Source of the DNA: an uncultured Clostridia bacterium
GTDB lineage: Bacteria; Bacillota; Clostridia; Christensenellales; Borkfalkiaceae
Length of the DNA: 64,000 bases
Direction of reading: 5' to 3'
Assembly (NCBI GenBank): GCA_947625555.1
Contig: CANQOT010000001.1
Span: 62,001-126,000 of the forward strand
Shown: positions 24,381-39,104 of the stretch, piece by piece
Layout: each line of letters opens with the position of its first letter
Position numbering within the stretch: position 1 is the first letter of the stretch
The notes under the pieces: model-generated
Seen by the model: the letters and a program-made list of their open reading frames with translations, nothing else
Told to the model about the DNA's origin: nothing
Database searches by the model: none
Program-made: the position numbers and the translations under genes

Positions 24381-27300
24381 ATGAAAAGGAAGTTGTGGGT
24401 TTTATTTGCAACGATCGTGGCGGCGGTGGCGCTCGCCTTCGGTATCTCGGCTTGTTCACCGTTCGTGCAACTGCCCACCCAACCGCAACCGTTGGGGACG
24501 CCCGTTGTCAGCATCTCCGACGAAGGCATAGCGAGTTGGGAACCCGTCGTTCATGCCGTAGGGTATTCCTATCTGATCGACGATGCCGCCGAAGTTTCCA
24601 CGACAGCGCGCAATGTGCAGCTCGAAGATGGGCAAACCATTCAAGTCAAGGCCACGGGCGACGGGTCCCTCTATTTAGACAGCGCGTATAGCGCCCCCGC
24701 CACCTATCACAAAGAACCCGTTCCCGAACTCACGCAGCTTGCAACGCCCGTCGTTTCCATCGACGAAGAGGGCCTTGCGACGTGGGAAGCCGTCCCCAAT
24801 GCGAGCGGCTATCAATATAAATTGAACGGCGGCGAGGAAAAGACCCTCGAAAGCGACGCCGAACTTCAAGTTCAACTCCAAGATAAAGATTCCATCCAGG
24901 TAAAGGCCGTCGGCGACGGCGAGACCTATTCCGACAGCCCTTACAGCGCGGCAAAGACCTACAACGCTCCCGCCAAACCCGAGCCCACCCAGCTTGCAAC
25001 GCCCGAAGTCACGATCGACGAAGACGGCCTCGCAACATGGGAAAGGGTCGAAAACGCGACGGGTTACGTCTGCAAAGTGGGCGGCGAAGAGCAGGAAGTG
25101 CAGACGGAGCTTTCCATTCAACTCCAAAGCGGCGACACCTTGCAGGTGAAGGCCGTCTCGACCGACACCGAGCACTTCACCGAAAGCGCATACAGCGACT
25201 TGCAGACCTATACCAAACAACCCGTCGAGGAGAAGGAAAAACTCCTCGCCACGTTCACGCTCGGCGATGATAATGAGGAGAATAAAGAGGGTACCGGCCA
25301 AAATGGTGATACCCGCGGTGACGGCGACGCTTCGTCTTCAACCACGGTAACGTTACACGATACGCAAAACAAATATACCTTAACGCTTACGGATGGCGCC
25401 AATCTTTATCAAAAAGCTTGGGATAATGCAGGGAACGGCTGCTTGAGATTGGGTTCAAGTAAAAATGTCGGTAAGTTTACTTTCATCGTTCCCGAAGGCA
25501 TCACGAAGGTTGTCATCTATGTTGCCGGTTATAAATCGGAGAGTACGGCCGTAGCTTATACAATCAACGAAAAATCATCGGGAACAATAACCGTTTCAAA
25601 GCATTCCGCTACACCCGAGTATGAGGCAATCGAAATCATCGTTTCGGGCACGACCGAAGCTGAAAGAACGCTCACATTTACTACGGTTAAAGACGTCACG
25701 GGAACGAAGCCTCGTTGCAAGATCAACACCATAGAGTTCTGGGGCGAAGCCATACCCGAGCTCACCAAACTCGATGCGCCGACCCTCAATGTCGACAGCC
25801 ACACGGGCGACGTCACTTGGGAAAAGGTCGAGGGCGCGACGAGCTACACTTATACCATCGACGGCGAGAACGAGACGACGGTCGGGAAGGACGACGAGCT
25901 CAAAGTCACCCTTAAAAACAATCAAACCATTACCGTCATCGCCAAGGGCGACGGCACGACCTACGCCGATAGCGATCCCGCTACCAAACAGTATGTACAC
26001 GAGCACGCCTACAAGACCGAAAACAACGGCTGGGAGAACGATTCCGACGAAGGCCACTACAAGAAGTGCACCTACTGCCAAGAGGAGACCGAAAAGACCG
26101 GGCACACCTACGAAAACGGCGTCTGCACCGAATGCCAATACGCACACACCGACCACAAGTATAGCGAGGAAAAGCCCGGCGAATGCACCGTCTGCCATTT
26201 GAAGCACACCGAGCACACCTATGAAGATAGGAACGGCAAGTGCCATACCTGTTTTGCAGAGCATACGGGCGACGACCACGTTCTCGCGACAAAGACCAGC
26301 TCGACCCACCACTGGACGGAATGCGACGTCTGCGGTGCAAAGACGGCGGAAATTGCGCATACGCACAATACATACGGTTCCGACGAGACCCAGCACTGGT
26401 CCGTCTGCGAATGCGGCGCCACCGTCCCGGACACCACCGAGGATCATACCTATCGTAACCAAAACGGCAAGTGCGATATCTGCGAGAAGGAGCACGCAAC
26501 TCACGACTACGGTAAGTCCTATATCTCCGACGACGCGTCAGGCCATCATCAAGTCTGCACCGTCTGCGGCAACGTGAGCGAAACCGTAGCCCACAGCACG
26601 TTGCAATATACGCACGACGACGACCAGCATTGGCAGGAATGCCCCGATTGCCATTGGATCAGCGGCACGAAGGAAGGGCATACCTATAACAACGAGGACC
26701 AGCCCGACCACTGCGATAAGTGCGGGTTCGACCGAAATCATGTGCACCAATATACCGCTTGGGATTCGGACGATACCTATCATTGGAGATACTGCCCGTA
26801 TCACGAAGGCAATAAGAATTTCACCGACGGCAAGACTTTACACCAATACGACGCGGCGAAAGGGGACGGTATCTGCACCGAAGAGAATTGCAAACACGCG
26901 CACAGCGGGCACACCTTCGAGCAGAAGCACGACCAAGACAACCATTGGCAGGAGTGCACGACTTGCTACTTAAAGCAAAGCATCACCGCTCACTCCTACG
27001 ACTGGAAAGTCAGCGGCAAGCAGCATATCCACGCCTGCACTTGCGGTTATCAAGATGTCGAAGGCCACACGCCTAACATGCAATCGGTCACGACCGACCC
27101 GAATAACCATTGGGAAAAGTGCGAGGAAGAGGGTTGCACCATCACGACCGAAAATGAGAAAGCTCCGCACACCTTCGTTTGCACGTCCATAAGCGACGAA
27201 CAGCACCAAGAAAAGTGTGAATGCGGCGCCACGCATGATGCGCAGAGCCACACCTACAAAAACGGCGTCTGCACCAACGAAGAATGCCGCCACGAGCATG

Positions 27301-30300
27301 AGACGCATGCCTACAAATGGGTCGCCGAAGGGACGACGCACAATCATCAATGCACGGTCTGCGAAAAGATTGAAACAAGCCACACCGCCACCCCCGATAC
27401 CGAGGCGGGCTTGAAACATGAGGACGGCGACACCCACTGGTACACCTGCAAAGGCGCAGAGGGTTGTGACCTTCACGTCAACGAGACAGAGCATGACGAA
27501 GGCACGGTTTTCGTAGAGAAAGATGACACGAACCATACCGTGCAGTGCGTCTGCGGCAAAGTCATCAAAGAGACCGAAGGCCACACCTACGATGGCTATG
27601 AGCAGACCGCCGACGGCACCAAACACTATCAACAGTGCACCAAGTGCGAGCACAAGACCGAAGAGACCCTGCATGAATTTAACGAGACGACTGCAAAGCC
27701 TACGAACGATGAAGAACAGGGCAATCACTATTGGGAATGCGAATGCGGCGCAAAGAAGACCGGCGAGCACGCATACGATCCCGAGACGCACAAGTGCAAA
27801 TGCGGTGCGATCGATCCCGATGTTGCCAAGGCAGAGGCAGCGCTTAACGCTATCAATTTCACCGCGCTGGACTACTACGAGAAGGTAAGCGCGTCCGCGC
27901 TTCCTACCACGACTTTGAATAGTGCTACCGTGACATGGGAAGTGAAGGAAGGGCAGCCCGAGGGCTATGTCAAAATCGAGGATAATAAGCTCACCATTCT
28001 CAAACTTTCGACGACGGGAGATGTGAACGTCACAATTACCGTCAAAGTCACCGTCGGTGCGGTCACGAAAGAAAAGGATTATACTCTCAAGCTCTATCAA
28101 ACCACCGTGCATAAAGGCACGGCAGACGATCCGTTCTCTATCGCAGACACGAAACTTCTTCTCAGTCGTCTCACTAATGTGGGTGACTATTACGAAGACG
28201 AAACAGGCGTCAAAGAAGTGTATGTAAAAGGTATCGTTACGAAAGACGGCGCCGGCTCGATCAATGGAGCATTTGGTATAAAAGATGTTTACATTGGCGA
28301 AACGAAAGATACAGCGATAAATGACGCCATCTATGTTTTCAATATCAATTGGGATGATGATATAATGAAAACGCAGGCTTCATCTCCGCTCTCGATAGGC
28401 GATGAAATCATTGTTCGCGGTTATTTCAAAAACCATAATGGAACGCAACAAATTACACAGAATGGGCAAAGAGATTTCCCCGATCTTGCATATTGGCTCA
28501 AAGCGTCCGACCGTCTTGAGGATTTGTTAGATGAAGAAGGTTGGGAAATAGTTGAACTCGATCTTACAACGGAACTTGCAGAAGGCGGAGATTCCGTTAC
28601 ATGGGATTTCGCGAATCTCGAGCTCGGCTTGCCCGAAGGTATTGAGTTCACACTCACAAGCGGTGACGAACAATATGTTCATGTGGAAGGCAATACCCTC
28701 ACGGCGTTGAAGAGACCCGAATCGGGCACAGTTTCGATTTCTGTCACGGCGACCCTCAAAGTCATGTTCAGAGCGGAGAAGGGCGGCAAGATCACATATA
28801 AGGAAATTACGTCGTCGACGGCAATCGAGGTCACCGTCACGCCGTTCGATTACGAGACCTATCTCCGTGGGGCGCTCGACTCCATTAAAGAGCAGTTGAG
28901 AACGCTTGCTCTCACGAAGGGCGAGACGAGCGGTGAGATCAAACTTGACGCCAAGTATTCCGATGTCACTTTGGAGATCACAGGCGGAAGCGATGACACG
29001 ATTAAATTGAATGTGACCGACGGCGGCTACACATTGCAGGTCGTCGCAGAAAGCGGCACGGTAACCTTCAATGTCAAAGTGACTTACAACGGTATCTATT
29101 CCGTTGCGGGGAGCTACCTCGAGCCCGAACAGGTCGAGGTCACGATCGTTGCTTCCGATAGCCCCGCGAAGTTACTGCAAGATGCCTATGAGGAACTTTA
29201 TAAGGGCAATGGAAAAGAAGAGTTGACGCTCGGTGGAGAAGGTCTCACCTTCACGATTGACGAGGAAACATATTCGGATATTTGGATCGAAGTAACTGAG
29301 GAACCCGAAGCGGGTGTAGTCAACATTGGAGAACAAGAGACATATTTCAGCTACACGGTGAATCCCTCGAAATTAGGGAAAACGACAATCAAGATTGAGT
29401 TGACCTATGTGGGCGAAGGAGAGGTAGATCCGCTTGTTAAGACGATCGAAATCACCGTCGTGCCCGATCTCGACGCAGAGCTTGAAAAGTTCACGCAGGA
29501 GGCGTTCACCAACCTCTTCGGCCAGTTCGAAAATGATGAGGAAGGCTACACGCTTGACGTCAAGAATACAATCAAGCTCACCGAGGGCATAGAAGTTCGT
29601 TATGAATTTAATCCCGAAGGCTATATCTCCGCCGACGGTAACACCTTCACCGTGACGAGACAGAGCGAGGCAAAGCAAGTCCAAATCATCGTCTATGTGA
29701 GCTACAACGGCGAAGAGATCGATAATAGCGGCTCGGGAAAGCAAATCTACGTCACTGTCCCGAAGAAAGATCCCATCAAGGGCTCCTTCGAGATTACAAT
29801 TTCGGATACAACTGTTACAGGTGGATACAGTAACTACACATGGACAAAGAAAAGCAACGATGGTAAATACACAATTGGTGGTAATGTTTACGCTTGCGAT
29901 AATCAAGGTATGCAATTCAATAAGAGTACGGCATACTTCTATAGCGACAAAGCAACACCTGCGCCGATTTCAAAAATTACCGTCGAAGCTTCGTATGGAA
30001 CCGTAGAATGGACACTTTACGTTAATAGTGTTGCATACAGTGGAACCTCAAATCCTTCATCTGGAACCGATTGTGGCAAGCAGACCATTTCTACAACTTC
30101 CAAAGGAGAATGGACGATTACAGACTCGAACGCAACGTATTTCGCCTTAGTAGACACAGGAGCGGCACAGTCTAAAATCTCGAAGATAACTGTAGAATAT
30201 GAACAGCTTACCGATGAAACGAAGGCAAATAGAGCGCTTGAAGCACTTGATTTGAAAGGAATCGACGGTAAAGAGTTCACAGCTCCGACGGAAGAGCCGC

Positions 30301-31001
30301 AAGCACTTCCTGTTGCAGAAGGCGCAACCACCACATGGACAATGCCTGAAAGCAAGTATGCAAAGGTCGAGAACAACCAACTTACGATTTTGAGCCTTCC
30401 GACCGCAGAAGAGGGACAGCAAGACCTTACTCTGAGCGTGACTGTTCAAGTCGGTGAGTATACTACAAGTGCCAAGACAGTAACAATCTCGATCCTGCCC
30501 GAAGGTAGTAAAGAGGAAGAAAAACTTTACACCTTGACGCAAACAAAAGGAAGCAATAGTAATTATGCCAGTTCGGGTATAGTAAAATGCGGAGACATTG
30601 AATGGAATGTCGAAGGCAACGCAACTACAGATCCATGGAGATTTGGCGGAAAGCAAATTACAAATACTAGCCGCTCACTTTCAGGGAAAACCGCAATTAA
30701 AGGTCAAGTAACGCAGATACTCATTACATTAACGAATAGCACTTCGTGTACGGTAAATAGCGTAACGCTCAAAGTATATTCTTCTGATCCCACGAGCGGA
30801 TTGCCCACAGCGCAATATACAAGGGATATAGAATATAAGAAAGACACACAAGTTATAGTTAGTGCAGGAAGTGATGAATGGAAAAATTGCTATTTCCAAA
30901 TCGTTTTCAATGTAACCTGCGGGAAGGCATCATCTGCTAAATCATACGGCAATGAATATGTAGCAATCAGTGAGCTTATATTTATGGGCTATTCTGAATA
31001 A
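24381..31001 (+). CDS. Giant multi-domain surface lipoprotein with Cys/His-rich repeats
   Basis: The product has 2206 residues. A lipoprotein signal peptide ends in the lipobox GISAC, so it should be lipid-anchored outside the cell. Three Ig/Fn3-like repeats of about 80 residues (LATPVVSIDEEGLATWE type; near 35-275) are followed by a beta-sandwich module (about 285-455) and a fourth repeat (460-540). Residues about 540-1145 are a repeat tract with some 20 CxxC or CxCG pairs and many His (GHTYENGVCTECQYAH type). After it come Big-like beta domains, an OB-fold-like segment (about 1245-1370, YVKGIVTKDGAGSINGAFGI) and two C-terminal beta-sandwich modules. No LPXTG motif is present. GC content falls after about 28.1 kb, suggesting a mosaic origin. 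Ligand unknown. Confidence 0.85.
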   Translation: MKRKLWVLFATIVAAVALAFGISACSPFVQLPTQPQPLGTPVVSISDEGIASWEPVVHAVGYSYLIDDAAEVSTTARNVQLEDGQTIQVKATGDGSLYLDSAYSAPATYHKEPVPELTQLATPVVSIDEEGLATWEAVPNASGYQYKLNGGEEKTLESDAELQVQLQDKDSIQVKAVGDGETYSDSPYSAAKTYNAPAKPEPTQLATPEVTIDEDGLATWERVENATGYVCKVGGEEQEVQTELSIQLQSGDTLQVKAVSTDTEHFTESAYSDLQTYTKQPVEEKEKLLATFTLGDDNEENKEGTGQNGDTRGDGDASSSTTVTLHDTQNKYTLTLTDGANLYQKAWDNAGNGCLRLGSSKNVGKFTFIVPEGITKVVIYVAGYKSESTAVAYTINEKSSGTITVSKHSATPEYEAIEIIVSGTTEAERTLTFTTVKDVTGTKPRCKINTIEFWGEAIPELTKLDAPTLNVDSHTGDVTWEKVEGATSYTYTIDGENETTVGKDDELKVTLKNNQTITVIAKGDGTTYADSDPATKQYVHEHAYKTENNGWENDSDEGHYKKCTYCQEETEKTGHTYENGVCTECQYAHTDHKYSEEKPGECTVCHLKHTEHTYEDRNGKCHTCFAEHTGDDHVLATKTSSTHHWTECDVCGAKTAEIAHTHNTYGSDETQHWSVCECGATVPDTTEDHTYRNQNGKCDICEKEHATHDYGKSYISDDASGHHQVCTVCGNVSETVAHSTLQYTHDDDQHWQECPDCHWISGTKEGHTYNNEDQPDHCDKCGFDRNHVHQYTAWDSDDTYHWRYCPYHEGNKNFTDGKTLHQYDAAKGDGICTEENCKHAHSGHTFEQKHDQDNHWQECTTCYLKQSITAHSYDWKVSGKQHIHACTCGYQDVEGHTPNMQSVTTDPNNHWEKCEEEGCTITTENEKAPHTFVCTSISDEQHQEKCECGATHDAQSHTYKNGVCTNEECRHEHETHAYKWVAEGTTHNHQCTVCEKIETSHTATPDTEAGLKHEDGDTHWYTCKGAEGCDLHVNETEHDEGTVFVEKDDTNHTVQCVCGKVIKETEGHTYDGYEQTADGTKHYQQCTKCEHKTEETLHEFNETTAKPTNDEEQGNHYWECECGAKKTGEHAYDPETHKCKCGAIDPDVAKAEAALNAINFTALDYYEKVSASALPTTTLNSATVTWEVKEGQPEGYVKIEDNKLTILKLSTTGDVNVTITVKVTVGAVTKEKDYTLKLYQTTVHKGTADDPFSIADTKLLLSRLTNVGDYYEDETGVKEVYVKGIVTKDGAGSINGAFGIKDVYIGETKDTAINDAIYVFNINWDDDIMKTQASSPLSIGDEIIVRGYFKNHNGTQQITQNGQRDFPDLAYWLKASDRLEDLLDEEGWEIVELDLTTELAEGGDSVTWDFANLELGLPEGIEFTLTSGDEQYVHVEGNTLTALKRPESGTVSISVTATLKVMFRAEKGGKITYKEITSSTAIEVTVTPFDYETYLRGALDSIKEQLRTLALTKGETSGEIKLDAKYSDVTLEITGGSDDTIKLNVTDGGYTLQVVAESGTVTFNVKVTYNGIYSVAGSYLEPEQVEVTIVASDSPAKLLQDAYEELYKGNGKEELTLGGEGLTFTIDEETYSDIWIEVTEEPEAGVVNIGEQETYFSYTVNPSKLGKTTIKIELTYVGEGEVDPLVKTIEITVVPDLDAELEKFTQEAFTNLFGQFENDEEGYTLDVKNTIKLTEGIEVRYEFNPEGYISADGNTFTVTRQSEAKQVQIIVYVSYNGEEIDNSGSGKQIYVTVPKKDPIKGSFEITISDTTVTGGYSNYTWTKKSNDGKYTIGGNVYACDNQGMQFNKSTAYFYSDKATPAPISKITVEASYGTVEWTLYVNSVAYSGTSNPSSGTDCGKQTISTTSKGEWTITDSNATYFALVDTGAAQSKISKITVEYEQLTDETKANRALEALDLKGIDGKEFTAPTEEPQALPVAEGATTTWTMPESKYAKVENNQLTILSLPTAEEGQQDLTLSVTVQVGEYTTSAKTVTISILPEGSKEEEKLYTLTQTKGSNSNYASSGIVKCGDIEWNVEGNATTDPWRFGGKQITNTSRSLSGKTAIKGQVTQILITLTNSTSCTVNSVTLKVYSSDPTSGLPTAQYTRDIEYKKDTQVIVSAGSDEWKNCYFQIVFNVTCGKASSAKSYGNEYVAISELIFMGYSE

Positions 31002-31253: not shown

Positions 31254-33608
31254 TCAATTCTTAAAAGTCACGGTGATGGTCGCGGAGGTGGAAGAGACCG
31301 ACACGATCTCAATATCAAAGTTCACCGTCTTGCCGTCGTTGCGCGCATAGGAGGGGAATTTCTTCGAAAAAATATCGCCCGCCTTCCACAGGTCGTCCGC
31401 CTCTGCAATGCCGTCTTGATTGCTCGAGAACTTCTTATCGCCGTCCGCCTCTACGAGCTTGATAAGAGCATTGCTTGTCACGGAATTGTTACAGTCGGTA
31501 AACGAGCCGTAACCGTCCTCCGCATAGGGGTTTTCGATCGAGGAAGAGACATGATAGATGCGCACGCCGTATTTTGCACCGCCATAGAGATATGTATCTT
31601 GTAAACCCGCGTGCATTTCGTTGAGCCCCGTCGCCGCATAGAGGTCGATGAGAAGGTATTCCGAGAAGTAGGAATTATCGAAATCAAGCGGAATGAGAAG
31701 GGCGGAGGGGATGGCGGAAGGGACCTGTGCCGAGGCTTGGATGGTGATCGTCGTTGTCTCGTTGACGACGGTCGCATCCAGCCAGCCGAGCATGATTTTG
31801 GAGTAAACGTTTTGGTCGCCGATGTTGTAGTCCATCATGTCCGCGCCGCCGAGGCCTTCGTTCGAGCCCTTCTTGAGGTCGGTATCATAGTAATCGTCGA
31901 GCCCAAGCAGGTGCCCCGTCTCGTGGATAAAGGTCTCGGCGTTGATTTTGAGCCCGTCGATCTTATCCTCGCCCGAGCCCGTGTCCTTTGCCGTGTTTTC
32001 ATAGATGAAATCGACACTCGCGAAGAAGTAGTAATATGCACCGCAGTCGTCGTAGGTCTCTTCGCCAAAGTACCAAGTCGTAAACGCCCAATAGAAATTG
32101 GCATATTCGTAATCGATGGGGGCGGAGTAGATGAGGTACACGGCGTCGATCATGCCGTCGTTATTATAGTCGTATTGCGTGAGGTCGAGGCGATCCTCGT
32201 AATATGTAAGCACTTCTTTGAGAATGGTTGTGGCATAGTCGCCTTTGCTCTCATAATAAGATGAAGAGTTTTTTGCGTTGTATACCGTCGTTTGAATGTC
32301 AAATGTTATGTCGAGCGTGCCGTTTGAAGATGTCTTATAATATGAATTTACGCTCTGCCAACCCGTATCGGCGGGGGTGCCGTTGAAGGCCTTCTTCAAA
32401 TTTTCCATTTGCGTAGAAGTGATTGTGTCGCCCTTGAACTGTACCGGTACGACAAGGGCATGGTAGTTGCCTGTCGAGGGGAGACCGATGGAGGGGAGCC
32501 CGTTTGCAGATTTATCCTTCGCCATCTTATCCTGCAAACGCTCATTGTCGAAAGTATTTGAATTATAGACTTGCTTCTCCATCATATTGGGATCGGTGGG
32601 GTCGTCTGTGCCGCCTTGGTTTCCGCCTTGATTTCCGCCCTGCCCGTTCGGAAGGGTGAAGCTCACCGAACCATGTTTGGAGAAGGTGAAGACGCAGGTC
32701 GTTTCGTCATCGAGCGTCGCCTCGATCTTTGAAATGTCGCCGTTCGAAATGTAGAGGTCGAGCTCTGTCCAATCGACGGTATAGAACGTTCCGTCCTCAT
32801 AAGGATCCTCGTATTGATAAATACCGAGGAGCTTTTGGGCATCCGTTCCCGCATTGTTCAGCGTGTATTTGCTGCCGCTCTTCATGAAGGTGACCTCTCC
32901 GAGTTTGGTAAGGTCGACGAGCCGCAGATAGGCGAAGCAGTACTCATAATCATCCGTGCCCTCGGCGTAGGTCTCGTAAGTGCTGCCGCTTTGCGCATAG
33001 AAGGTGTGCTTGTTCGTCGAGGGGTTGAACGAAATATAGTCGGTGTAGGTGGCTTCGTCGTAATTATCGTCGTAGCCTATGTAGACGTTTTTCACATTAT
33101 AGCCGGAATATTCGTATGTTTCGTTGAAGGTATCGCCGTCGTAGGTTTCCGCATAATCGACCGCGAAGCTCCACTTGGACATATCCGCATACTTCTTGAT
33201 GACGGCGGAAAGCTCATCGACGGGGGTATCGGGATCGTCGACGGGATCGCTGGGCTTGGTGGAGCCGCCCTCATCATCGTCCGTTTTCTTCGGCATGACG
33301 GTGAACTTGATCTCCTGCGTCTTTCCCCCGCAAGAGATTTTCACCGTGAAGGTGCCCGGCAGGGAGGTATCCGCCTGGGAGAGGTCGAGCATATCCTCCG
33401 TCACGGTGACGGGGTCGCCGTTTCTGTCCGTCACGAAGAAGTACTTCGTGAAGTCCACTTCCTCGCCGACGGTGAGTTCGACGGACAAGCTCTCGTTGAT
33501 CGTGATCTGATAGCCCGGCCGAACAAATTGGCATGCCGCGATCCCCGCACCCGCAAAGGAAAGCGAGAGCGCCACGCCGAGGACGGCAAAAAACTTGGCT
33601 TTTTTCAT
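31254..33608 (-). CDS. M6-like metalloprotease lipoprotein
   Basis: The 784-residue protein has a lipoprotein signal peptide (lipobox GIAAC), an N-terminal Ig-like region, an acidic Pro-rich linker and a zinc-protease domain. The metzincin-type motif HETGHLLGLDDYYD is near residue 562, and the preceding VVPVQF, YYKTSSNGTL and DYNNDGMIDAVYLIY segments resemble M6 (immune inhibitor A) peptidases. A GGNQGGNQGG linker separates N-terminal and catalytic parts. It should act outside the cell on host, dietary or bacterial proteins. The ATG at 33608 follows GGGGTGA; an in-frame GTG three codons earlier is less likely. It converges on the giant lipoprotein gene. Confidence 0.88.
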   Translation of the reverse strand: MKKAKFFAVLGVALSLSFAGAGIAACQFVRPGYQITINESLSVELTVGEEVDFTKYFFVTDRNGDPVTVTEDMLDLSQADTSLPGTFTVKISCGGKTQEIKFTVMPKKTDDDEGGSTKPSDPVDDPDTPVDELSAVIKKYADMSKWSFAVDYAETYDGDTFNETYEYSGYNVKNVYIGYDDNYDEATYTDYISFNPSTNKHTFYAQSGSTYETYAEGTDDYEYCFAYLRLVDLTKLGEVTFMKSGSKYTLNNAGTDAQKLLGIYQYEDPYEDGTFYTVDWTELDLYISNGDISKIEATLDDETTCVFTFSKHGSVSFTLPNGQGGNQGGNQGGTDDPTDPNMMEKQVYNSNTFDNERLQDKMAKDKSANGLPSIGLPSTGNYHALVVPVQFKGDTITSTQMENLKKAFNGTPADTGWQSVNSYYKTSSNGTLDITFDIQTTVYNAKNSSSYYESKGDYATTILKEVLTYYEDRLDLTQYDYNNDGMIDAVYLIYSAPIDYEYANFYWAFTTWYFGEETYDDCGAYYYFFASVDFIYENTAKDTGSGEDKIDGLKINAETFIHETGHLLGLDDYYDTDLKKGSNEGLGGADMMDYNIGDQNVYSKIMLGWLDATVVNETTTITIQASAQVPSAIPSALLIPLDFDNSYFSEYLLIDLYAATGLNEMHAGLQDTYLYGGAKYGVRIYHVSSSIENPYAEDGYGSFTDCNNSVTSNALIKLVEADGDKKFSSNQDGIAEADDLWKAGDIFSKKFPSYARNDGKTVNFDIEIVSVSSTSATITVTFKN

Positions 33609-33641
33609 GTGTTTCACCCCAAAGGATAATTTTACATGATA

Positions 33642-33670: not shown

Positions 33671-33781
33671 GTATTTTTTCCAAACGGATATGTGAAAAAT
33701 GGGGGCGCGTCGCCCTCCGAAGCACCCCGTGCGGGGCGCATAAATCTTTCCCGAATACAAAAACTGCATTGGGAGAGCAGT

Positions 33782-34774
33782 ATGGGAAACCAAACGATTT
33801 ACTTCAAAAACGAGCCGCGCATCATCGCGACGAGCACGGTCGCGGGGCCAAAGGAGTGCCGCGGGATCATCGGCCGCTACGTCGAGCGGGCGCTCTCCGA
33901 CGACATGTTCGGCGAGACCACCTTCGAAAAAGCGGAATGCAAGATGCTCTCCTCCGTCATCGACGGCGCGATCAAGAACGCGGGATTGGACCGCGATGAA
34001 GTGGATATGATCGTCTCGGGGGATCTTCTCAACCAGATCATTTCCGCGAGTTTCGCCGCCCGTGATTTTTCCGTTCCCTTTTTGGGCGTGTACGGCGCAT
34101 GTTCGACGATGGCCGAGGCCCTCGCCGTCGCTGCCGCATTCATCGACGGGGGATTTTGCCGCCGTGCCGTCGCCGCAACGGGCAGTCATTTCGCCTCCGC
34201 CGAACGGCAATACCGCTACCCGTTGGAACTCGGATGCACCCGCCCGCCGCAGGCGCAGTGGACGGTCACGGCCGCGGGGGGAGCCCTCGTTTCGCGGGAG
34301 GGGAACGGCGTCCGCATCACCTCGGCGACGCTCGGCAAGGTCGTCGATTTCGGCGTGACCGACGTCAACAACATGGGCGCCGCCATGGCGCCCGCCGCAT
34401 GCGATACCATTTTGGCGCATTTTCGCGGTTCCCACGAGGACCCCGGGGAGTACGACCTCATCGTCACGGGAGACCTCGGCGCTCTCGGCAGCCGCATTTT
34501 GAAAGATCTTACATGGGAAAAGGGGCTGGATATCTCCGCCAATCACGTCGATTGCGGCGAGATCATCTACAATGTCATCGAAGATGAATTTCAGGGCGGC
34601 AGCGGGGCGGGCTGTTCGGCCGTCGTGCTCAATTCCTACTTCTATTCCAAACTCATGACGGGTTCGCTCAAAAAAATACTGTTTGTCGCGACGGGCGCGC
34701 TCCTTTCCACCGTCTCTTCGGGGCAGGGGGAGAGCATTCCGTGCATCGCCCACGCGGTCACCCTCGAACGATAA
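33782..34774 (+). CDS. spoVAD: Stage V sporulation protein AD
   Basis: SpoVAD is part of the SpoVA channel that loads dipicolinic acid into the spore and releases it on germination. The 330-residue protein has the thiolase-like fold of the family, with VYGACSTMAEALAVAA around the former active-site cysteine, VTDVNNMGAAMAPAA, and a C-terminal GALLSTVSSGQGESIPCIAHAV. GGGAGAG precedes the ATG at 33782; earlier in-frame codons are not conserved-looking. spoVAE follows after 26 bases. spoVAC, normally just upstream, is not here. No convincing sigma-G or sigma-F promoter was found. Confidence 0.95.
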   Translation: MGNQTIYFKNEPRIIATSTVAGPKECRGIIGRYVERALSDDMFGETTFEKAECKMLSSVIDGAIKNAGLDRDEVDMIVSGDLLNQIISASFAARDFSVPFLGVYGACSTMAEALAVAAAFIDGGFCRRAVAATGSHFASAERQYRYPLELGCTRPPQAQWTVTAAGGALVSREGNGVRITSATLGKVVDFGVTDVNNMGAAMAPAACDTILAHFRGSHEDPGEYDLIVTGDLGALGSRILKDLTWEKGLDISANHVDCGEIIYNVIEDEFQGGSGAGCSAVVLNSYFYSKLMTGSLKKILFVATGALLSTVSSGQGESIPCIAHAVTLER

Positions 34775-35827: not shown

Positions 35828-36673
35828 TCATATAGCCGACAAAATTTCCTCTATATCATAGTTTATGCAGATTGCCTGTTTTTGTATCTGTTCGGGGCAA
35901 AAGGCTTCGCCGTAGTTGATACAGGCGTAGGTGGCTTGCATGTTTTCCGCGGTCAGCTGCCAAAAAGGATATTTGATGATAGTGGGCGTATTATATCCGA
36001 CGCCGAGCTCGAGATAAAGCACTTTTCCTTGGCTGTGCGTATTTATAAACCGTTCATATCGCTTGCAAGCCGCATACCAACCGTCATCCTCAACAAACTT
36101 ATCGTCGGCACGCAAGTTCATCGTCATGGGTTTTCCGCATTTCGGGCAACGGGGAATAAGATCGGTCGGAATACGCATATCCCTTTGTTCCGATGCCATA
36201 CGACGGACGATTTCTTCGTTTTCATACGTTTTGTTGTGGCAGGGCTCGGAACATTGAAAAAGCCCGTAATCTCCCTGTGTATAGAAGAGGCGGGTCTTGT
36301 TAAATCCCGCCTTTTGAAAGCAGTGATCGACGTTGGTCGTGATCACGAAATAATCCTTGTCTTTTATAAGGTCGAAAAGTTCTTGATAGACGGGCTTAGG
36401 CGGATCCATGTAACGGTTGACGAGGATATATCTCGACCAATAAGCCCAATGTTCTTCGAGCGTGTCATACGGGAAAAAACCGCCCGAATACATATCGTGA
36501 AAACCGTATTTTCCCTCAAAGTCGGAAAAATATCTTTCAAAGCGCTCGCCCGAGTAGGTAAAACCCGCCGCCGTGGAAAGTCCTGCACCTGCGCCGACAA
36601 CGAGCGCGTCTGCGCCGTCGAGCGCCGCTTTCAATCTACATATTTGCACCGAGATATCTTGCGTAAATTTCAT
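35828..36673 (-). CDS. Class M sirtuin (SirTM), protein ADP-ribosyltransferase-like
   Basis: The 281-residue protein has the sirtuin Rossmann motif GAGAGLSTAAG (residues 27-37), TTNVDH at 112-117 and a Cys4 zinc site (Cys141, Cys145, Cys176, Cys179). The position of the catalytic deacetylase histidine holds Gln133 (YTQGDYG), with Asn114 as partner; this replacement marks SirTM sirtuins, which ADP-ribosylate proteins instead of deacylating lysines. The gene overlaps the 3' end of a macrodomain gene by 38 bases, the standard partner. AAGGAG precedes the ATG at 36673. The target is unknown, since no GcvH-like or lipoate-ligase gene is nearby. Confidence 0.88.
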   Translation of the reverse strand: MKFTQDISVQICRLKAALDGADALVVGAGAGLSTAAGFTYSGERFERYFSDFEGKYGFHDMYSGGFFPYDTLEEHWAYWSRYILVNRYMDPPKPVYQELFDLIKDKDYFVITTNVDHCFQKAGFNKTRLFYTQGDYGLFQCSEPCHNKTYENEEIVRRMASEQRDMRIPTDLIPRCPKCGKPMTMNLRADDKFVEDDGWYAACKRYERFINTHSQGKVLYLELGVGYNTPTIIKYPFWQLTAENMQATYACINYGEAFCPEQIQKQAICINYDIEEILSAI

Positions 36674-37412
36674 GATCTTGCTCCTTGAACACATTGAAAA
36701 CGACCTTGATCTTGCTTTTTGTCTGCCATTTATACTCCCGTACTGTCCGAATGGCGATCTCGGCGGCGCGCTCGTTCGGAAAATGAAATTCGCCCGTAGC
36801 TATACAGCAAAACGCAAGACTTTCAAGTCCGTTTTTATCGGCGAGAGCGAGGCAGGAACGATAGCAACTTTCCAAAAGCCGTTCGTGTTCTGCGTTGAGT
36901 GCGCCGTACACAATGGGACCTACGGTGTGCAGAATGTATTTACATGGCAGATTGTAAGCGCGCGTGATCTTTGCCCCGCCCGCAGCCTCGTCACGGCGTT
37001 GCGTCCTCATGATTTTTGCGCACTCCTGTCGAAGCTGAATGCCCGCATACGTGTGAATGGCATTATCGATACAGCCGTGATTGGGACAGAAGCAACCGAG
37101 CATTTTGGAATTGGCGGCGTTGACGATCCCGTCGCATTTGAGCGTCGTGATGTCGCCTTGCCAAAGGTAAATGTCGGGCTTTAACGGTGTAAGATCGGCA
37201 ATATCTGTTATTCCTTTCAACCGCAGTTCTTCCGAAAGATATTCGTCCTGCACGCACAAAAATTCTTTGCTCGCCGCGCTCGGCTCCCGCACGTTGAAAA
37301 GGGCGCGGAGTAGTCGTTTTTGCGAAAATTCATCTTTTGGAATTTCCGTTCGCGCGTTTTGTTCGGCGAGCAAATATTCTATCAAGTATTGCCGTCTTGG
37401 CTCTTGATCCAT
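36636..37412 (-). CDS. SirTM-linked zinc-type macrodomain protein (ADP-ribosyl hydrolase)
   Basis: The 258-residue protein has an N-terminal helical region (about 1-70) and a macrodomain: WQGDITTLKCDGIVNAANS (about 84-102) binds ADP-ribose, and CFCPNHGCID (Cys107, Cys109, His112, Cys114) matches the Cys/His insertion that binds zinc in sirtuin-linked macrodomains. HTVGPIVYG and CCIATGEFHFPNERAAEIA complete the fold. It should remove ADP-ribose added by the adjacent sirtuin. GGGAG lies seven bases before the ATG at 37412. The gene is second in the cupin-macro-SirTM operon. Confidence 0.88.
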   Translation of the reverse strand: MDQEPRRQYLIEYLLAEQNARTEIPKDEFSQKRLLRALFNVREPSAASKEFLCVQDEYLSEELRLKGITDIADLTPLKPDIYLWQGDITTLKCDGIVNAANSKMLGCFCPNHGCIDNAIHTYAGIQLRQECAKIMRTQRRDEAAGGAKITRAYNLPCKYILHTVGPIVYGALNAEHERLLESCYRSCLALADKNGLESLAFCCIATGEFHFPNERAAEIAIRTVREYKWQTKSKIKVVFNVFKEQDHEIYARYLGANM

Positions 37413-37467
37413 AATCGTCTCCCAATAAAATGCGCAACCGAGCAAACGGTTGCGCCCTTTTGACATT

Positions 37468-37821
37468 TTATCCGATGATGGCGTCCGACGCGGTGTAAGC
37501 GCCGAGCGAGTTCTCCTTGACCTGGATGCAGATGTATTTGATCGCGCTCTTTTCCGATGCAAAGAATTGACGCTTCGCGGCAGGGGAGATGCGCAGCCAA
37601 TCGCCCGCGGAAAGGGGAATGTTTTCGCCGTCGATCTTTGCAAAGCCCTCGCCTTCGAGAATGCCGTAGATCTCCTCGTTCTCCCTGTGCGCATGCACGA
37701 AGGGCACGCTCGCACCCTGCGGAAGGGTGTTGATGCTGACCTCTGCGCCCGTGAGATGAAGGGCGTCGTGCAGCTCGACGCGCGCACCCTCTTTCACACC
37801 GATCTTGTTGTAATTTGCCAT
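37468..37821 (-). CDS. Cupin-domain protein
   Basis: A 117-residue single-cupin protein. The first cupin motif is PFVHAHRENEEIYGILEGEG with metal-ligand candidates His43, His45 and Glu49; the second is less typical (LSAGDWLRISPAAKRQF). The substrate is unknown; it could sense or modify a small molecule. A perfect AGGAGGT precedes the ATG. It is first in the operon with the macrodomain and SirTM genes (55-bp gap) and diverges from an HxlR regulator, so it may be part of the same stress response. Confidence 0.87.
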   Translation of the reverse strand: MANYNKIGVKEGARVELHDALHLTGAEVSINTLPQGASVPFVHAHRENEEIYGILEGEGFAKIDGENIPLSAGDWLRISPAAKRQFFASEKSAIKYICIQVKENSLGAYTASDAIIG

Positions 37822-37855
37822 AATGATTTACCTCCTGACGAAATCGTTCACCCAT

Positions 37856-37884
37856 AGTATAGCAAACGCTCCCCGGGAATGCAA
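37856..37884 (-). promoter_or_regulatory. Promoter of the cupin-macrodomain-SirTM operon
   Basis: On the minus strand TTGCAT (37884-37879), a 17-bp spacer and TATACT (37861-37856), 34 bases before the cupin ATG. Confidence 0.75.
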
Positions 37885-37891
37885 GAGCGTT
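37865..37891. promoter_or_regulatory. Inverted repeat over the operon promoter (candidate HxlR operator)
   Basis: AACGCTC (37865-37871) and GAGCGTT (37885-37891), perfect 7-bp arms 13 bases apart, cover the spacer and -35 box of the SirTM operon promoter in the region shared with the divergent HxlR gene. Confidence 0.55.
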
Positions 37892-37943
37892 ACCATTCTA
37901 TTATTTGATAATCATTTTAATACAAAGTATCTTTTTTGAACTA

Positions 37944-37972
37944 TTGACAACACTATCAGTTTATGTTATAAT
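37944..37972 (+). promoter_or_regulatory. Promoter of the HxlR-family gene
   Basis: TTGACA (37944-37949), a 17-bp spacer and an extended -10 TGT-TATAAT (37967-37972). Confidence 0.88.
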
Positions 37973-38001: not shown

Positions 38002-38331
38002 ATGTTGACGAGAGAGGAATTGCCCGAATGCCCCGTTGCGACCACCGTGCGTCTCATCGGGAATAAATGGAAGCTCCTCATCATCCGCAACTTGATCTAC
38101 CACGGCAAACAGCGCTTTACGGAATTTATCCGATCCATCCCCGCGATCAGTAAAAAGGTGCTGACGGATAATCTGCGCGCACTCGAAGAGGACGGGCTCA
38201 TCGAGAGGGAAGTCTTTGCCGAAGTGCCGCCGCGCGTGGAGTATTCTCTGACCGCGCTCGGCATGTCCCTCAAACCCATTCTCGACGCGATGTCCGATTG
38301 GGGTACCGAATACAGATCCTGCGCCCCGTAA
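38002..38331 (+). CDS. HxlR-family transcriptional regulator
   Basis: A 109-residue winged-helix protein with the family start (PECPVATTVRLIGNKWKLLIIRNL), recognition region ISKKVLTDNLRALEEDGLIEREV and wing VPPRVEYSLTALG. Cys10 sits at the position used for redox or electrophile sensing in some HxlR proteins. GGGAGGGAAGGAA precedes the ATG. It diverges from the cupin-macrodomain-SirTM operon and is the obvious candidate to control it. Confidence 0.92.
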   Translation: MLTREELPECPVATTVRLIGNKWKLLIIRNLIYHGKQRFTEFIRSIPAISKKVLTDNLRALEEDGLIEREVFAEVPPRVEYSLTALGMSLKPILDAMSDWGTEYRSCAP

Positions 38332-38452: not shown

Positions 38453-38713
38453 ATGTATGAAGTAAAATTGAAGATAGAGGGCATGCACTGCGGCATGTGC
38501 GAGGCGCATGTGAACGACGCGGTGCGCAAGGCCGCGCCCAATGCGCAAAAGGTAGCTTCTTCCGCAGCCAAGGGGGAGACGACCTTCCTCTGCGAGGAAG
38601 ACTGCGTGGAGGCTGTCAAGTCCGCCATCGAAGAGATGGGCTATCATGTCCTTTCGGCGGAGACCGTCCCGTACGAGAAGAAGGGATTTTTCGCGAAGCT
38701 CTTCAAGAGATAA
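38453..38713 (+). CDS. Heavy-metal-associated (HMA) domain protein, CopZ-like
   Basis: The 86-residue protein is a single HMA domain with metal motif GMHCGMC (Cys13, Cys16) followed by a short basic tail (YEKKGFFAKLFKR). Such proteins chaperone copper or a similar soft metal. The ATG at 38453 has AAAGGAG nine bases upstream; an upstream in-frame extension overlaps the promoter and is rejected. A DtxR/MntR-family regulator follows 28 bases downstream. Confidence 0.9.
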   Translation: MYEVKLKIEGMHCGMCEAHVNDAVRKAAPNAQKVASSAAKGETTFLCEEDCVEAVKSAIEEMGYHVLSAETVPYEKKGFFAKLFKR

Positions 38714-38741
38714 ACGGCCGCACTGCGGCGGGGGGAAGAAG

Positions 38742-39104
38742 ATGAGGACGCACGAATCGGAGGAAATGTACCTCGAAACCATCCTTTTACTCAGAGAACG
38801 GGGGGTCGGCGTACATGCAGTCGATATCGCGGGGGAACTCGGCTATGCGAAGTCGAGCGTTTCGCGCGCCGTCGGCCTGCTCCATAAGAAAGGCTATATC
38901 ACCGTCAACGAGTACGACGAGATCGCGCTCACGCAATCGGGCGAAAAGAAGGCGAGCGATATCTATGAGCGCCACCGCGTCATCACCGAACTTCTGATGC
39001 GCATCGGAGCGGACAGGGCGCTTGCGGAGGAGAATGCCTGCCGCATCGAGCACGTCATTTCCCCCGAGCTCTTCGAGATCATGAAAAAGCATGTGAAAAA
39101 GTAA
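38742..39104 (+). CDS. DtxR/MntR-family metal-dependent regulator
   Basis: The 120-residue protein has the N-terminal winged helix (RTHESEEMYLETILLLRER, then AKSSVSRAVGLLHKKGYI) and the dimerisation/metal-binding helices (HRVITELLMRIG, ENACRIEHVISPELFEIMKKH) of MntR-like repressors. The SH3-like third domain of DtxR is absent, as in MntR. Metal could be Mn, Fe or Zn. It lies behind the HMA gene and may share its transcript. Confidence 0.9.
   Translation: MRTHESEEMYLETILLLRERGVGVHAVDIAGELGYAKSSVSRAVGLLHKKGYITVNEYDEIALTQSGEKKASDIYERHRVITELLMRIGADRALAEENACRIEHVISPELFEIMKKHVKK

Follow-up and report, generated by a model that had tools for sequence, protein, structure and literature searches.

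A class M sirtuin and zinc macrodomain joined to a cupin and a divergent HxlR regulator in a clostridial genome without detected lipoylation genes

The 64,000-nucleotide stretch analysed here (the window) comes from contig CANQOT010000001.1 of an uncultured Clostridia bacterium of the gut, family Borkfalkiaceae (assembly GCA_947625555.1, 99% complete) and carries genes for a class M sirtuin (SirTM), a zinc macrodomain and a cupin on one strand and, divergently, for an HxlR/DUF24 regulator on the other. All four genes named by the first-pass annotation of this DNA lie where it had placed them. With moderate confidence, we interpret the locus as a thiol- or electrophile-induced operon that maintains a reversible ADP-ribosylation cycle on a non-lipoylated target. 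The regulator would probably sense through Cys10 and control the shared intergenic region, and upon induction the operon would yield the cupin, SirTM as writer and the zinc macrodomain as eraser. SirTM would then move ADP-ribose from nicotinamide adenine dinucleotide (NAD+) onto a protein target encoded elsewhere, from which the zinc macrodomain would take it off. In this organism the target would not be a lipoylated protein and probably not the cupin. The functions of writer, eraser and regulator are predicted by homology, and we infer the co-transcription, redox induction, operator and target class of this locus. The SirTM-macrodomain pair itself is already known; the HxlR/cupin context, the lipoylation-free host and the cis/trans pattern of the eraser are new. 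The features of the locus are as follows.

35828..36673, minus strand: SirTM (class M sirtuin); starts at Met8 of the longest open reading frame (ORF, 35828-36694); Gln133, Asn114, Arg188 and four zinc cysteines
36636..37412, minus strand: zinc macrodomain (protein-ADP-ribose hydrolase family); 38-nt overlap with the SirTM start
37468..37821, minus strand: Cupin_2 protein of 117 aa; HxHxxxEE, seemingly Lys83/Arg84 in place of the usual fourth His, invariant Cys98
38002..38331, plus strand: divergent HxlR/DUF24 regulator with Cys10
37926..37942, plus strand: imperfect dyad AGTATCTTTTTTGAACT (ideal AGTTTC-N5-GAAACT), conserved; candidate HxlR operator adjoining the HxlR -35 element
37944..37972, plus strand: HxlR promoter TTGACA-17-TATAAT, a perfect match (12 of 12 consensus letters)
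37856..37884, minus strand: candidate cupin operon promoter TTGCAT-17-TATACT, found by eye and absent from the promoter scan output
37432..37455, minus strand: terminator-like hairpin of 9 pairs (7 G-C) in the gap between cupin and macrodomain; possible attenuator
37865..37891, no strand: inverted repeat AACGCTC/GAGCGTT of the first-pass annotation; present, at chance level, left arm not conserved

Identity of the writer and the eraser

Neighbourhoods were mapped in genus and order relatives, at the best 80 further contig loci and in a class sample, whose 66 loci leave out three same-genus genomes. Loci were counted where 1.7 kb or more of DNA was available upstream and after removal of duplicates, and the SirTM tree was built without rows that were shorter than 250 aa or identical. 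The SirTM gene begins, with the Shine-Dalgarno sequence AAGGAG, at Met8 of its longest ORF, so that the Asn114/Gln133 numbering of the first-pass annotation holds. Its assignment to the class M sirtuins, made on these two residues, is borne out: QG replaces the catalytic HG, the Asn and Arg partners are present, and the gene is linked to a zinc macrodomain (overlapping it here, and linked at 63 of the 66 class-sample loci). The closest solved structure is 5a3a ('SIR2 family protein', E 2.8e-78), which we take to be that of SpySirTM. In the window protein, Asn, Gln and Arg are spaced 19 and 55 residues apart, identical to Asn118, Gln137 and Arg192 of SpySirTM, whose mutation is described in PMC4518038 as strongly cutting activity. 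In an alignment of 112 SirTM rows, of which two are copies, 110 have the Gln and 111 the Asn; a fragment (L062) and a remote sequence (L063) account for the departures, and each of the zinc cysteines is likewise conserved in 110 or 111 rows. The protein scores 22.5 bits against the Pfam SIR2 model, under the cut-off of 24, and a second sirtuin in the same genome is canonical with the usual HG. By homology to tested relatives, the window SirTM would thus be an ADP-ribosyltransferase.

The macrodomain matches the NCBIfam protein-ADP-ribose hydrolase model NF003163 (359 bits, cut-off 272) and contains the Cys/His insertion that the first-pass annotation had read as the mark of a zinc macrodomain: the motif LGCFCPNHGCIDNAIH places Cys-His-Cys in the catalytic loop and is accompanied by Dx3H. 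Its top solved matches are 8rsi, 5kiv and 8rsl, presumably all zinc macrodomains. Homologues were assayed for zinc-dependent protein ADP-ribose hydrolysis in PMC11490716, and by likeness to these tested relatives the window protein is predicted to be a zinc-dependent protein ADP-ribose hydrolase.

The nearest known arrangement is the lone SirTM/Zn-Macro pair, or 'minimal operon' (for example the source of MorMacro), which, as described in Rack 2015 and Ariza 2024, has the same Gln-for-His sirtuin and adjoining zinc macrodomain and lacks GcvH-L and LplA; the window operon has, beyond these, a cupin gene and an HxlR gene in divergent orientation. The main texts of PMC11490716 and PMC4518038 do not mention a cupin, and a literature search, with most subscription papers outside its reach, found no publication joining SirTM or the macrodomain with HxlR; the one that names sirtuin, macrodomain and cupin together is a review of jumbo phages. 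The extended SirTM operon of Staphylococcus and Streptococcus (GcvH-L, macrodomain, SirTM, LplA2, OYE, LLM) shares the writer and eraser families and the redox-type neighbours. It differs in GcvH-L and LplA2, whose families were found neither at the window locus nor elsewhere in the genome, as the first-pass annotation had noted for the locus.

Conservation and gene content of the locus

A SirTM match was found in 23 of the 37 same-genus genomes (this one included) and in 67 of the 391 genomes of the class sample. The cupin adjoins SirTM at 15 of 28 loci in the genus and order, at 25 of 64 among the best 80 contig loci, and at a single one of the 66 class-sample loci; it characterises a single group centred on the window's family, and the majority of that group's named members are labelled as rabbit-gut genomes. 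Conservation of the cupin and HxlR genes beside the pair, which the first-pass annotation had proposed as a check, is strong within this group, as judged by ORF labels: apart from the window, 41 unique loci pair the cupin with SirTM, and a divergent HxlR gene is present at every one. Domain labels show it at 40 of 42, and the other two, the window and L044, also have the gene. The SirTM tree places all 44 cupin rows together in a single open cluster, which comprises 50 rows (support 82) and in which loci with and without a macrodomain are interleaved.

The regulator extends far beyond the cupin. A divergent HxlR gene lies upstream of 33 of the 66 class-sample SirTM loci, 32 of them without a cupin (30 of 63 loci once three copies of earlier loci are dropped). 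Chance adjacency of HxlR and SirTM is very unlikely, since the window's own genome has only two HxlR genes in total. With HxlR standing before half of the sampled clostridial SirTM loci, this association also indicates conditions under which a modified protein might be found. Between HxlR and the macrodomain-SirTM pair, other genomes carry a nitroreductase, a PNPOx-ferredoxin protein, a PIG3-type quinone reductase, SnoaL-like and NAD(P)H-binding proteins, DUF1848 or DUF5131, or an ACGX-repeat peptide (TIGR04341) with a radical SAM enzyme (TIGR04340). The shared theme of the genes behind HxlR is redox or electrophile chemistry.

The ACGX type is an observation in its own right. In several Clostridia, the peptide and a radical SAM/SPASM enzyme open SirTM/Zn-macro operons behind a divergent HxlR gene (L118, L120, L195-L197, L200, L201, L203, L204, L206, L211, L218 and others); in the class sample, the enzyme was scored at 12 of 66 loci and the peptide was detected in 13 of 68 SirTM regions, and no publication on such operons was found by literature search. 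Some operons also carry additional genes within them, upstream of the macrodomain or SirTM gene, namely a short-chain dehydrogenase (L069, 4444-5286), DUF5131 (L071, L082) and DUF1848 (L090, L106).

Linked and stand-alone zinc macrodomains

The macrodomain is the variable gene of the set, being absent beside 23 unique cupin-SirTM loci (the window not counted). A stand-alone zinc macrodomain is present in 21 of the 23 genomes without a linked one, compared with 2 of the 20 that have one (Fisher p 5e-8), a contrast that lineage may confound, as ten and seventeen of these genomes come without kinship data. The 21 comprise 11 of 13 genus and order relatives (none in G019 and G022) and 10 of 10 further genomes, and the two (G450, G456) come from 17 further genomes, next to none of three relatives. 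The zinc motif was read in 20 of the 21 stand-alone genes and in G450 and G456; the gene of G465 is cut by a contig end and has the same neighbours. Second macrodomains of G446 and G451 are of the ordinary GGGG type and were left out of the stand-alone count. G252 (L192), which has a linked macrodomain, is not among the 20, the interrupted linked macrodomain of L083 was counted as linked, and L065 and L069 have a linked one. Each of 20 cupin-linked and each of 15 stand-alone proteins has the strict zinc motif.

The 15 stand-alone proteins form one clade (support 100/99) in a tree for which 35 of 103 other linked macrodomains were drawn at random; for this tree the program flagged a meeting of long branches between the stand-alone clade and L058. 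Within the genus, a stand-alone gene seems to be the usual state and is lacking in genomes that have the linked gene, and the cis/trans pattern suggests that an eraser is retained wherever the writer is. The neighbourhood of the stand-alone genes is itself conserved (L176-L190, L275-L289), with a PH-like protein and, by eye, glycerol kinase-, phosphoglucosamine mutase- and GlmS-like genes.

HxlR regulator and intergenic region

Redox or electrophile control, as proposed by the first-pass annotation, is plausible. The window HxlR scores 116 bits (cut-off 20.8), which places it in the HxlR/DUF24 family, and has Cys10; an N-terminal Cys is found in 30 of 31 scored HxlR proteins and, by eye, in three rows missed by the pattern. 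DUF24 regulators are described as sensing quinones, HOCl and diamide through such a Cys (PMC6943732). YodB, CatR, HypR and QsrR share the family, the N-terminal Cys and the divergent position next to a redox-type gene, and the window protein remains under the NCBIfam cut-offs for RrpB (123 against 175) and RrpA (82 against 185). The formaldehyde-sensing HxlR described in PMC7835342 requires a Cys11-Lys13 pair. Sensing of this type is unlikely here, because the window sequence reads Cys10-Pro11-Val12 and the Lys two residues after the Cys is missing.

Across 45 aligned intergenic regions of the cupin type, a block running roughly from 37885 to 37972 shows conservation. It includes the dyad at 37926-37942, which the alignment suggests as a candidate HxlR operator: the best site has at most 3 mismatches of 12 in 40 of 47 regions (3 in the window), while shuffles average about 4. 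These 47 regions include the copies L068 and L089, and the best match in L074 is located elsewhere. The exact operator is not settled, because full symmetry is poor in most rows (in 13 of 42 rows, at least 5 of the 8 positions are complementary) and the neighbouring AT-rich positions are equally conserved (0.80).

The first-pass annotation had instead taken the inverted repeat at 37865-37891 as the HxlR site. The repeat exists, yet this role is rejected: when the 180-nt intergenic stretch was Markov-resampled 1000 times, 24% of the resulting sequences contained at least one such 7-bp repeat, and the left arm of the window's repeat is not conserved (majority frequency 0.48; mean identity to the window over 44 aligned relatives 0.34, against 0.71 for the right arm). 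The candidate cupin promoter overlaps this repeat and has majority frequencies of 0.87 at -10 and 0.71 at -35 (45 rows).

Target of the modification and alternative explanations

A target modified as in the pathogen operons, that is a distant lipoylated protein such as GcvH or an E2 subunit, had been considered by the first-pass annotation. GcvH-L is the sole SirTM substrate given in PMC4518038 and PMC11490716, and its lipoylation strongly favours the reaction. The window's genome, however, contains no match to GCV_H and none to the LplA/LipB catalytic family, and its single Biotin_lipoyl domain has the biotin-type AMKM motif and lies, by eye, beside a sodium-pump-like membrane protein. In the genus (37 genomes), GCV_H and above-cut-off ligase matches occur only in G035 and G036, both of which are without SirTM, which leaves all 23 same-genus genomes with SirTM lacking both GcvH and an above-cut-off ligase. 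The ligase search was positive in 13 of 14 known genomes used as a control, and matches to PF21948 under the cut-off in the SirTM genomes G007, G015, G023 and G031 (about 19-20 bits against 27) are probably biotin ligases. We therefore reject a lipoylated target for this genus; it is very unlikely in this organism, and a distant GcvH or E2 protein acting as in the pathogens would be extremely improbable. As SirTM and a ligase occur together in the wider order in G042 and G050 (SirTM without a ligase being found in G046, G054 and G058), the claim of a lipoylation-free host is limited to this genus, and with lipoylation genes in only 2 of the 37 genomes we claim no statistical anti-association with SirTM. 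A host without detected lipoylation genes separates SirTM chemistry from lipoylation, and SirTM targets outside the lipoylation operons were stated to be open in the 2024 paper (PMC11490716). Perhaps the lipoylated GcvH-L of pathogens is a single, specialised case among the clients, with the Cys-rich ACGX peptide as a candidate elsewhere, although we regard this as a long shot.

The cupin was the other candidate of the first-pass annotation, and as a dedicated ADP-ribosylation substrate replacing GcvH-L it would have in its favour that its gene leads the operon, that it remains beside SirTM at the 23 loci without a macrodomain, and that it has invariant Asp/Glu and Cys residues. It is a Cupin_2 protein (34.7 bits, cut-off 27.2) whose closest solved relative, the uncharacterised cupin 3cew (E 1.4e-44, about 60% identity by eye), matches over the full length, keeps the Cys and differs in not being tied to SirTM here. 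HxHxxxEE and Cys98 are invariant in 27 aligned cupins, and the fourth ligand seems to be Lys/Arg. The cupin is not bound to SirTM, however. In the genus, 21 of 37 genomes have the cupin, linked to SirTM in 15; five of the six unlinked genes have a divergent HxlR, and four of these six genomes have no SirTM match. In the class sample, 16 of 391 genomes have it, 12 of them from outside the window's taxonomic family; no cupin of these 12 adjoins a detected SirTM, three of them being found with a divergent HxlR and two further ones that were checked beside an Rrf2 regulator. Conversely, a cupin of this protein family is missing from 65 of the 66 SirTM loci in the class sample. Linked (46 rows, two of them copies) and unlinked (18 rows) cupins differ, by the criterion applied, only at positions 33, 61 and 86, none of which is Asp, Glu or Cys, so the candidate acceptor residues are common to both groups. 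A cupin target is thus unlikely, and its role as a dedicated GcvH-L replacement appears quite improbable; the cupin is probably a small co-regulated redox or electrophile-stress protein.

Two further explanations concern the operon as a whole. HxlR and the cupin could be an independently regulated pair with macrodomain and SirTM merely downstream and functionally unconnected, which would fit the HxlR-cupin pairs that stand alone and the terminator-like hairpin after the cupin, found in the window and by script in 7 of 45 rows, with further hairpins by eye. On the other hand, the next scored domain starts within 15 nt of the cupin stop, or overlaps it, in 16 of the 45 rows, and a divergent HxlR is also present at SirTM loci with quite different cargo; we consider this separation unlikely. 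Alternatively, the pair may modify a target that is not a protein side chain, or be an NAD-consuming defence module. Sir2-like defence enzymes deplete NAD and some relatives of macrodomain and transferase act on nucleic acids, with which such a role would agree. Nevertheless, none of the PADLOC models gives a substantial match to SirTM, macrodomain or cupin (the best reaches 12.9 bits, E 0.004), on which ground Sir2-type phage defence was rejected, and the nameable neighbours in the mapped loci, regions in which no search for defence genes was made, are of redox type. Together these make a non-protein or defence role rather unlikely.

Several observations nonetheless weigh against an induced operon with a writer-eraser cycle. 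The hairpin between cupin and macrodomain could uncouple the cupin from the pair, and 33 of the 66 class-sample loci have no divergent HxlR within the available 2.0-6.8 kb upstream. With other cargo types, the dyad reaches p<0.05 in only 12 of 31 regions, three of these being of the cupin type, and one HxlR operator common to all cargo types is not established. The cis/trans contrast mixes lineages, the genus alone giving 0 of 2 against 11 of 13. A stand-alone zinc macrodomain also occurs in 11 of the 14 same-genus genomes without SirTM (a twelfth, in G002, is partial), which implies that it has work besides SirTM, and in G019 and G022 the cupin-SirTM pair is present and no macrodomain relative of any kind was found.

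Neighbouring genes

Just past the end of the operon, the window encodes SpoVAD (33758-34774, plus strand) followed, by eye, by a SpoVAE-like ORF. Directly after HxlR lie genes for an HMA metal-binding protein and a DtxR-type iron repressor (38453-39104, plus strand). Two large lipoprotein-like ORFs without a Pfam match are also present, one of 2206 aa with many Cys-x-x-Cys/His repeats (24381-31001, plus strand) and one of 787 aa with a HETGH metalloprotease-like motif (31254-33617, minus strand).

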